This document shows positions 18,220-21,790 of a stretch of DNA of 64,000 nucleotides, one piece after another. Position numbers and translations under genes: made by a program. The notes below the pieces were generated by a model that was not told the origin of the DNA, searched no databases, and saw nothing but the letters and a program-made list of their open reading frames with translations. Source of the stretch: Chitinophagales bacterium (GTDB taxonomy: Bacteria; Bacteroidota; Bacteroidia; Chitinophagales; JADIYW01); NCBI GenBank assembly GCA_023957245.1, contig JAMLHJ010000008.1:124001-188000 (forward strand), given 5' to 3'. The number at the start of each line of letters is the position of its first letter. Position 1 is the stretch's first letter.

Positions 18220-19020
18220 ATGAACATTTTAATTATTGGAGGAGGAAACATGGGTAAATCCCTCGCCCAGAGCATTATCCAAGCCCAAATTATACCTTCA
18301 AATCAACTATTTATTTTTGAAAAAGATGAAAGTAAGATTGAGGAGCTTAATCAACAAAAAATCGGAATTGCATTTTCCAATCCCAATGAAAATTTCAAAG
18401 ATGCAGATTTATATATTTTAGCAGTAAAGCCACAAGATTCTGCTAATATTTATCATTTAATAGCTCCTCATATTCATCCAGACAAGATTGTGCTTTCCAT
18501 TATGGCAGGTATCAAAATTGAGAGTATAAAAATAGGTACTAATGCTCAAAAGATTGTTCGCACTATGCCCAATCTACCATGCATTGTCAATAAAGGAACA
18601 ACTGGATTTATCACGCAAGGCTTAAATGACAGAGATAAAGAGTTCATATCCCAACTTCTTCAAACGACAGGAATAGCATTGGAAGTCGATGAAGAAAGTA
18701 AAATAGATGCAATTACAGCTATTTCAGGAAGTGGACCAGCTTATGTTTTCTATTTTATGGATGCGATAGTACAAGCTGCTATACAATTGGGATTTGACAA
18801 AAATGAAGCTACTCAAATTGTCGTTCAAACATTTGAAGGCAGTATTGAATTATTTAAAAATAATCCATTCTCTTGCAACGAATGGATACAAAAAGTTTCT
18901 TCCAAGGGTGGCACTACTGAAGCAGCAATGGAGATATTTGATCAATTCAATATGAAAAACCAGATTGGCAAAGGTGTATTGAGAGCAGAACAACGATCTA
19001 AAGAATTGAGTAAAGGATAA
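18220..19020 (+). CDS. proC: Pyrroline-5-carboxylate reductase
   Basis: A 266-residue enzyme that makes L-proline from pyrroline-5-carboxylate with NAD(P)H. The N-terminal Rossmann motif is IIGGGNMGKS; later come AVKPQD, the AGI segment, RTMPNLP and the ProC signature AITAISGSGPAYVFYFMDA with TTEAAM. The ATG at 18220 is chosen over a TTG at 18184, because the extra 12 residues precede the usual MNILIIGGGNMG start and lie in promoter-like sequence (TATTTG and TAAATTTA). Confidence 0.92.
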   Translation: MNILIIGGGNMGKSLAQSIIQAQIIPSNQLFIFEKDESKIEELNQQKIGIAFSNPNENFKDADLYILAVKPQDSANIYHLIAPHIHPDKIVLSIMAGIKIESIKIGTNAQKIVRTMPNLPCIVNKGTTGFITQGLNDRDKEFISQLLQTTGIALEVDEESKIDAITAISGSGPAYVFYFMDAIVQAAIQLGFDKNEATQIVVQTFEGSIELFKNNPFSCNEWIQKVSSKGGTTEAAMEIFDQFNMKNQIGKGVLRAEQRSKELSKG

Positions 19021-19197
19021 ATCTCTCCTTATTCATTCTTGGAAATTCCACATTCAACAATTTAAAACAAATTCATTAATTTTAGCTTAGTAATTTTTTA
19101 AAATTTTCCTTGTTTAATTTAAAATTTTTAAATAAAATAACAATAAAATTATCAAATCGGCAAAAATTGATAAATTGAAAAAAAAATTCAAAAAAAA
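19021..19197. other. AT-rich gene-free stretch upstream of the metY leader
   Basis: This part of the 382-base gap between proC and metY is almost pure A and T, with long A-runs near 19177-19199. I see no ORF, tRNA or hairpin of note. The A-rich tract directly upstream of the putative -33 element could act as an UP-like or bent-DNA element; that is inference. Confidence 0.5.
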
Positions 19198-19230
19198 TTT
19201 TGTGGTGTCATATCAAAACTTCTACCTTAG
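19198..19230 (+). promoter_or_regulatory. Putative promoter of the metY leader (TTTTG, 20-base spacer, TACCTTAG)
   Basis: TTTTG at 19198-19202 and TACCTTAG at 19223-19230, spaced by 20 bases, resemble the Bacteroidota -33 (TTTG) and -7 (TAnnTTTG) elements, with one mismatch in the second. If the usual distance holds, transcription begins within a few bases of the ATG at 19238, which would make the leader ORF leaderless or nearly so. Not verified. Confidence 0.45.
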
Positions 19231-19237
19231 CGAAGCA

Positions 19238-19291
19238 ATGAAAAAGAACGTAAACAGACAAATGTGTTGTAGCAGCATCAAAGATGTGTGA
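19238..19291 (+). CDS. Met-Cys-Cys leader peptide of the metY-metX operon
   Basis: A 17-codon ORF starting at ATG 19238 and ending in TGA at 19289-19291. The peptide is MKKNVNRQMCCSSIKDV, with adjacent Met, Cys and Cys codons at 19262-19270. It lies in the leader of the sulfhydrylase gene metY, a pathway whose product is homocysteine/methionine. It is followed by a strong intrinsic terminator at 19326-19356. Leader peptides rich in the regulated amino acid, with a downstream terminator, are the hallmark of transcription attenuation; polycysteine leader ORFs are known in mycobacteria. Coding is inferred from composition and placement, not from homology. Confidence 0.6.
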   Translation: MKKNVNRQMCCSSIKDV

Positions 19292-19339
19292 GAAACGCTT
19301 GTGTCTAATCGTGAACAATATAACCAAGGCTTCTCTACA
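19287..19339 (+). promoter_or_regulatory. Candidate antiterminator pairing
   Basis: Bases 19287-19294 (TGTGAGAA) can pair with 19331-19339 (TTCTC, a bulged T, ACA), giving 8 pairs with one bulge. The 3' strand overlaps the left arm and loop of the terminator, so the two folds exclude each other. The 5' strand overlaps the leader stop codon, so a ribosome reaching the stop would cover it, whereas one stalled at the Cys codons would leave it free. The pairing is seen; its function is inferred. Confidence 0.45.
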
Positions 19340-19356
19340 TTGAGAAGCCTTTTTTT
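19326..19356 (+). terminator. Intrinsic terminator (attenuator) upstream of metY
   Basis: A perfect 10-bp stem (AAGGCTTCTC with GAGAAGCCTT) closed by loop TACATT, followed by a T-run. It lies after the leader ORF and 47 bases before metY, where no upstream gene on the same strand needs termination other than the leader itself, which points to attenuation. Confidence 0.85.
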
Positions 19357-19390
19357 ATTAAAAATTTTAACTACAAATATTAACCATTAA

Positions 19391-20698
<1,308 letters not shown>

Positions 20699-20767: not shown

Positions 20768-21790
20768 ATGTCAGTAAAAATACTTTCTCATCCCTCATCA
20801 TTTCCATTAGACAGTGGTACTGTTTTACCTTCTATAGATATTGCTTACCATACTTTCGGTCAATTGAATGAGGATAAAAGTAATGTTGTTTGGATATGCC
20901 ATGCATTCAGTGCAAATAGTGACCCGAGTGATTGGTGGCCAGGCATGGTAGGAGAAGGAAAATACTTTGATCCCAAAAAATATTTTATTGTATGTGCCAA
21001 TATGTTAGGTTCTTGCTATGGCACCACTGGGCCATTGAGCATCAATCCAGCAACGAATGAGCCTTATTACGGAGATTTTCCTATAGTGACGGTAAGAGAT
21101 ATGGTAAGAAGTCTTATTATATTGAGAAAGCATTTAGGTATTGAAAAGATTTGGTTTTCTCTAGGATTTTCAATGGGAGGGCAACAATTATTAGAATGGC
21201 TAATTCTAGAGCCGGGATTAATAGAAAATGCATTATTAGGAGCTACCAACATACAGCACTCACCTTGGGGAATTGCCTTTAATGAAAGTCAAAGGATGGC
21301 AATTGAAGCAGATCAAACTTTCGGAGAAAAAAATCCACATGCAGGAGCCAAAGGTATGGGAGTAGCAAGAAGTATAGGTTTGATTTCATACAGAAACTAC
21401 CAAGCCTATGGCAAAACTCAAAAAGACGACTCCAATGAACTGCTGTCCAATTTTAAGGCATGCAGCTATCAAAGATATCAAGGAGAAAAATTGATAAAAA
21501 GATTCAATGCTTACTCCTATTATAGGCTTTCTCAAGCGATGGACAACCATAATATCATGAGAGGAAGGTCTTCAAATCCTCAGGATATCCTTTCTCAAAT
21601 TCCAACAAAGGTTTTAGTATTAGGAATTGATTCTGATTATTTATTTCCTATTCAAGAACAAGAATTATTGGCTAAATATTTACCTCAACATCAATTTGTA
21701 AAAATCAGCTCAGATTATGGACATGATGGTTTTTTAATTGAATTTGAAAAGATAAGTATTGTTCTTAACGAGTTTTTGGGTATAAACTAA
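20768..21790 (+). CDS. metX: Homoserine O-acetyltransferase
   Basis: A 340-residue alpha/beta-hydrolase-fold enzyme that transfers acetyl from acetyl-CoA to homoserine, giving the substrate of MetY. Catalytic elements are the nucleophile serine in GFSMGGQQLLEW, the aspartate in LGIDSDYLFP, and the histidine in DYGHDGFLIE. An upstream GTG at 20720 would add 16 residues encoded by the hairpin, so the ATG at 20768 is preferred. The stop overlaps the convergent permease stop by 3 bases. Confidence 0.92.
   Translation: MSVKILSHPSSFPLDSGTVLPSIDIAYHTFGQLNEDKSNVVWICHAFSANSDPSDWWPGMVGEGKYFDPKKYFIVCANMLGSCYGTTGPLSINPATNEPYYGDFPIVTVRDMVRSLIILRKHLGIEKIWFSLGFSMGGQQLLEWLILEPGLIENALLGATNIQHSPWGIAFNESQRMAIEADQTFGEKNPHAGAKGMGVARSIGLISYRNYQAYGKTQKDDSNELLSNFKACSYQRYQGEKLIKRFNAYSYYRLSQAMDNHNIMRGRSSNPQDILSQIPTKVLVLGIDSDYLFPIQEQELLAKYLPQHQFVKISSDYGHDGFLIEFEKISIVLNEFLGIN

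Follow-up and report, generated by a model that had tools for sequence, protein, structure and literature searches.

Leader-peptide attenuation is a classical regulatory mechanism. Members of the Bacteroidota mostly make no use of Shine–Dalgarno sequences. A form of such attenuation keyed to cysteine has reportedly been described by Canestrari et al. in 2020 as polycysteine leaderless short open reading frames (ORFs) of mycobacteria. These mycobacterial ORFs are cited in PMC13236596 and PMC9094748, and the available part of PMC13236596 gives their mode of regulation as translation attenuation. In the Rhodobacterales, the uORFC-8-2 motif was defined upstream of cysS on a comparative basis, according to the portion of PMC8632094 at hand. 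Within the Bacteroidota, the accessible passages of PMC9723704 report clues of leader-peptide attenuation upstream of amino-acid biosynthesis operons in Flavobacterium psychrophilum. A literature search restricted to open-licence papers, and hence weak as evidence, returned the Rhodobacterales and mycobacterial cysteine leaders but none described for metY in Bacteroidota.

The window analysed here is a stretch of 64,000 nucleotides from a Chitinophagales bacterium (contig JAMLHJ010000008.1, positions 124,001 to 188,000). Direct reading of the sequence places the end of proC at 19020 and metY at 19403-20698, with the switch parts in between: positions 19199-19358 hold a promoter, a leader ORF, a hairpin over Cys codons, an antiterminator and a 10-bp intrinsic terminator, all before metY-metX. 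The product of MetY is homocysteine, one step from cysteine, which weighs against the cysteine reading. The features are as follows.

19199-19202, forward strand: -33 element TTTG of a Bacteroidota sigmaA-type promoter, 20 nt 5′ of the -7 box
19223-19230, forward strand: -7 element TACCTTAG (consensus TAnnTTTG, 5/6), ending 7 nt before the leader ATG
19238-19291, forward strand: leader peptide ORF MKKNVNRQMCCSSIKDV, probably leaderless
19265-19270, forward strand: tandem Cys codons TGT TGT, putatively regulatory, with an ATG just before; relatives have CC, CCCC or CCCCC in the matching position
19256-19306, forward strand: hairpin 1:2, part of the minimum free energy structure, which sequesters the Cys codons along with the 5′ strand of the antiterminator
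19285-19300, forward strand: antiterminator 5′ strand (region 2), pairing with 19327-19339 at -10.5 kcal/mol
19326-19339, forward strand: terminator 5′ arm and loop (region 3), the alternative partner of 19285-19300
19326-19358, forward strand: intrinsic terminator, a perfect 10-bp stem (19326-19335/19342-19351) with a loop of 6, followed by a T-run
19403-20698, forward strand: metY, O-acetylhomoserine aminocarboxypropyltransferase (TIGR01326, 646 bits, above cut-off), the putatively regulated gene
20768-21790, forward strand: metX, homoserine O-acetyltransferase-like, the second gene (top family TIGR01392, 336 bits, cut-off 500)

All elements named in the original prediction are found on direct reading, including the ATG at 19238 that opens the 17-codon ORF (closed by the TGA at 19289-19291), the -33/-7 pair right before that ATG, and the perfect 10-bp terminator with T-run upstream of metY. 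Its central proposal, that a Cys-coding leader governs metY-metX by attenuation, is strongly supported by comparative data, while the response to starvation itself is inferred. The locus is very probably a cysteine-responsive, ribosome-mediated transcription attenuator of metY-metX, a reading reached in the absence of expression, start-site or ribosome-profiling data. The assignment of metX also falls below the NF001209 threshold (314 versus 331), and a metX gene lies in the flank of 76 of 99 metY loci. The leader peptide, lengthened by three Gly as padding, had no match in NCBIfam.

Taken alone, the window sequence is inconclusive and only suggestive of an attenuator: when 400-nt upstream regions are shuffled, about 6% of them (4.7/79) contain a short ORF with CC by chance. 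The element stands far above chance because it is conserved in relatives. Two further genomes of the window genus, which sits in a small family, were compared. In the closest congener, whose MetY is 94% identical, the leader ORF is 96%, the promoter 93% and the terminator 94% identical, versus 66% in the upstream DNA. The leader of the other congener (G002) reads MKKTMNCQMCMMYIQDV, with Cys-Met-Met and no tandem Cys. Another genus of the family carries MLNRFSMNMFCCCCMTV, MIKSFSPNTMCCCCTTE, MIKIFSMNAMCCCCKTE, MKHLTANMMMCCCCLTNGKGD and MKSFLNNIMCCCCKTETEGFV at the equivalent place, each followed by a terminator. The check that had been proposed, conservation of the Cys codons in relatives, was thus passed, with the codons kept and expanded to CCCC. 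As the Cys runs mix TGT and TGC, it is the coding, and so the amino acid, that is conserved and not one base sequence.

Of the 10 metY genes in the family whose upstream sequence is long enough, 8 are preceded by a leader ORF; among the family metY genes examined, those of G010 and G005 have no recognisable Cys leader upstream. Some details of these loci are recorded for their own sake. The metY genes of L008 (in G010) and L020 are preceded by a terminator without a Cys leader, and L008 has a short MFFL ORF instead. G010 and L020 share the same metY identity, start and terminator. The metY match of G010 carries one in-frame TGA, possibly the mark of a decaying gene or a sequencing error.

The promoter seen in the window has an equivalent in all eight family leaders. 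In each of them, 2-10 nt separate the ATG from the end of a TAnnTTTG-type -7 box that matches at 5/6 or 6/6 positions, the background rate of such a match being 8.5%, and TTTG (once ATTG) lies 19-20 nt 5′ of the box. The -7 box spans -12 to -5 in F. psychrophilum, as given in the available part of PMC9723704, so that the start is predicted at about 0-6 nt before the leader ATG, with a 5′ UTR of 0-6 nt. The family leaders are probably leaderless; promoter placement is the sole support for this, without start-site mapping.

Downstream of the leader, two terminator-like sites were found (one hairpin, counted on both strands) versus 0.3 in shuffles. The RNA of 19190-19380 folds better than 200 of 200 dinucleotide shuffles (z -3.7). 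Across eight family sequences, compensatory changes occur at four of the eight aligned pairs of the terminator stem. RNAalifold, run on the family alignment, recovered the terminator only and missed the antiterminator because the register of the latter shifts between genera; per-locus duplex tests were used in its place. The antiterminator had been predicted as a pairing of 19287-19294 with 19331-19339. That pairing exists, but it is only part of a longer duplex, 19285-19300/19327-19339, which comprises 13 bp with two small bulges. The energy of the window antiterminator alone reaches only P 0.05-0.08 relative to shuffles.

The comparison between genomes is more informative, as the segment after the Cys codons matches the terminator arm of its own locus. 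In the window the two are GAGAA..GCUU/AAGGC-UUCUC, and in relatives GAAAGGC/GCCUUUC, GGGAAAGGU/GCCUUUCCC and GGAAGGCU/AGCCUUCC. The pairing has a combined P of 1e-9 over 22 automatically found terminator-type leaders, which come from several families and some of which are related. In the GC-rich f22 group, the antiterminator energies are individually not above shuffles. The second check that had been suggested, covariation of terminator and antiterminator in relatives, is borne out by the compensatory stem changes and by an antiterminator that changes along with the terminator.

In 18 of 20 leaders, the antiterminator begins 3-16 nt past the final Cys codon; the null gives a mean of 6 such leaders and a maximum of 12. 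L030 and L082 were left out of this test, their terminators being automatic pickups that are apparently false. Such spacing would be expected for a stalled ribosome on the Cys run that must just clear the antiterminator. Relative to the stop codon, by contrast, the antiterminator edge lies anywhere between +9 and -40. It had been proposed that the 5′ strand, overlapping the leader stop codon, is placed for control by the ribosome; placement relative to the Cys run agrees with this, but the stop codon does not set the spacing.

The trp-like regions 1:2, 2:3 and 3:4 are all present in the window. Hairpin 1:2 is formed by 19256-60/19302-06, 19264-68/19294-98 and 19272-79/19283-89. In the window leader it should, on the folding model, favour termination if the leader is untranslated, as in trp; in most relatives it was not seen to limit antitermination. 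Folding with an imposed ribosome footprint, before the 3′ arm of the terminator is made, gave modelled antiterminator occupancies in the window of 0.10 when no ribosome was present, 0.84 when one was stalled at Cys and 0.36 when it stood at the stop codon. The modelled occupancy was higher for the stalled ribosome than for the one at the stop in 11 of 11 leaders. At equilibrium, the terminator of the full-length RNA is favoured in nearly every state, so the switch must be kinetic and decided during transcription. A ribosome attenuator is expected to have an ORF with regulatory codons, an intrinsic terminator and a mutually exclusive antiterminator whose placement lets the ribosome position decide, and the locus has all three, with translation of the ORF inferred.

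The proposed sequence of events would be as follows. Transcription would start at, or a few bases 5′ of, the leader ATG, and the ribosome would load on a nearly leaderless ORF. When Cys-tRNA is scarce, the inferred stall at the tandem Cys codons would open the hairpin that covers them. The stalled ribosome would leave 19285-19300 free to pair with the terminator 5′ arm, and through this putative antitermination the RNA polymerase would read into metY-metX. With ample Cys-tRNA, the ribosome would reach the stop codon and cover 19285-19300, the terminator would form, and transcription would end before metY. The resulting change in readthrough is likewise inferred.

The Cys leader extends well beyond the window family. 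The comparison covered 79 metY loci of other genomes, labelled with few exceptions as Bacteroidota or their relatives. A CCC-containing ORF of at most 50 codons lies within 400 nt upstream of metY in 30 of them, with 0.17 in shuffles, none on the reverse complement and 1/76 in the region 800-1200 nt upstream. In a sample from the window's order, a Cys run of at least three precedes metY at 22 of 40 loci. Met-free runs of 3-9 Cys are the commonest pattern, Cys is near-constant, and the longest examples reach CCCCCCCC; CMC and CMCC variants also occur. Two pattern scans were of little use: TTTG..ATG..TGYTGYTGY in the family was dominated by coding-strand repeats, and ATGTGYTGY matched 75 times in the genome to which the window belongs, without being informative.

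The idea that the leader also precedes cysK or cysS in near relatives of the window was not supported, with CCC upstream of 0/30 cysK-like genes and 1/30 cysS genes. Elsewhere in the phylum, other families carry short ORFs with a terminal Cys run of CCCC or more. These lie 60-65 nt before cysS (L295, L323, L326) and 69-156 nt before cysH-type PAPS reductase genes (L298, L324). They also occur upstream of PhyH-family genes (L317, L340, L342) and of a RimK-like ATP-grasp gene (L336), where a link to sulfur is unexplained. In one genus (L267, L270, L274), a conserved 49-codon Cys/Lys-rich ORF (MLKLPIIQNQIS...CKCECDGKKKCCKKYKHGKRCKSCPKRKD) lies about 270-320 nt upstream of cysS and resembles a small protein more than a leader.

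At many Bacteroidota metY loci, the Cys leader has a SAM-I riboswitch (RF00162, 56-86 bits) on its upstream side. This tandem was found at L025, L043, L047, L051, L069, L077, L079, L082, L084, L089, L099 and others. Of 14 loci measured, 13 have 7-16 nt between the end of the aptamer and the leader ATG, which makes the leader, and not metY, the next gene of the riboswitch. The exception, L024, has 359 nt between the two; the leader of L073 is Cys-rich without a CC run. In the Balneolaceae L044 and L095 the order is reversed, with a Cys/Met leader and intrinsic terminator first and SAM-I second, adjoining metY, the elements lying about 100-420 nt upstream of the gene. RF00162 was not detected in the window or its family. 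At tandem loci, it is inferred that SAM-I would gate translation of the leader, which would then read Cys-tRNA. The evidence leans, without great force, towards a phylum-wide cysteine sensor of which the window element is the terminator-type branch, with SAM-I and leader acting elsewhere as a two-input SAM/cysteine RNA device that controls metY. No description of a SAM-I and Cys-leader tandem was found in open-licence papers, a weak form of evidence.

Several other readings of the window element can be set against cysteine-responsive attenuation. It is unlikely, though it cannot be dismissed, that the leader senses methionine, or methionine and cysteine together, rather than cysteine. MetY and MetX supply homocysteine for methionine, Met codons stand beside the Cys codons, the G002 leader contains MNCQMCMM, and many relatives have CMC or CMCC runs; yet the runs are most often Met-free, leaders of the same type stand before cysS and cysH, and SAM-I already senses Met/SAM at many of these loci. 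Because Cys is near-constant and those other leaders precede cysS and cysH, cysteine is favoured as the signal, an inference drawn from sequence comparison. With only two Cys codons in the window leader and Cys-Met-Met in G002, methionine may contribute and is not excluded.

It is very unlikely that the leader acts by another route, such as Rho access, translational coupling or the kind of reinitiation seen with mycobacterial poly-Cys leaders, with the hairpin merely terminating readthrough from proC. The many Bacteroidota poly-Cys leaders upstream of metY in which scans detected no terminator would be compatible with such control, and the mycobacterial leaders work at translation according to the available part of the source that cites them (PMC13236596). 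Against it, the terminator arm in the window family covaries with the post-Cys segment at a fixed spacing from the Cys run, and the hairpin lies 3′ of the leader's own promoter, so that metY transcripts starting there would be affected too. Scarcely credible is a protein- or metabolite-binding RNA, akin to a riboswitch, that governs the terminator beside an incidental short ORF. The 5′ region is indeed well folded and conserved, and SAM-I precedes metY in related bacteria. However, no Rfam family reaches its gathering score in the window, and the best sub-threshold match is Phe_leader (RF01859; 23.4 bits, E 0.22, gathering score 55), a family to which the window element does not belong and which is itself a leader-peptide attenuator. 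Moreover, the stretch from Cys run to terminator is unconserved in sequence across genera, whereas the Cys codons persist.

Ribosome-mediated attenuation keyed to cysteine would give the Bacteroidota, where leader-peptide attenuation has received little study, a concrete cis-acting sensor of sulfur. The apparently leaderless family leaders offer a natural test of transcription–translation coupling in Bacteroidota. A SAM-I aptamer followed by a Cys-run ORF suggests that the real target of a riboswitch can be a regulatory peptide, which, if true, would change the reading of Bacteroidota SAM riboswitches before metY.

Compared with described systems, the window element resembles the trp, his and phe attenuators in its short ORF with tandem regulatory codons, its protector 1:2, antiterminator 2:3 and terminator 3:4, and a decision that would rest on ribosome position. 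It differs from them in having Cys codons, metY-metX as target, a Bacteroidota host and a probably leaderless start. The uORFC-8-2 motif shares the upstream ORF, two tandem Cys codons inside a stem and a following intrinsic terminator, but is confined, in the available part of PMC8632094, to Alphaproteobacteria and cysS, with Cys usually at peptide positions 14-15; the window element, which precedes metY in a Bacteroidota genome, is not a member. The mycobacterial polycysteine ORFs, as far as the available parts of the papers citing them go, are leaderless and short, contain Cys codons, precede sulfur-metabolism genes and respond to cysteine. The window leader resembles them as a short Cys-coding ORF before such genes, its leaderless start being supported by promoter placement only and its response to cysteine inferred. 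They are actinobacterial and translational, whereas the window family has an intrinsic terminator and a covarying antiterminator, an architecture that argues for transcriptional control. The F. psychrophilum operons belong to the same phylum, and the main-text passages available from PMC9723704 name no cysteine leader or metY. SAM-I (RF00162) and the metY SAM-V riboswitch (PMC6061858) also exert cis-acting RNA control of metY-type genes; the window has no such riboswitch, and other Bacteroidota have SAM-I directly before the Cys leader. Within the limits of the open literature, leader-peptide attenuation and its cysteine versions elsewhere were already known, and what appears new is the probable cysteine-keyed, ribosome-mediated attenuation in the Bacteroidota.
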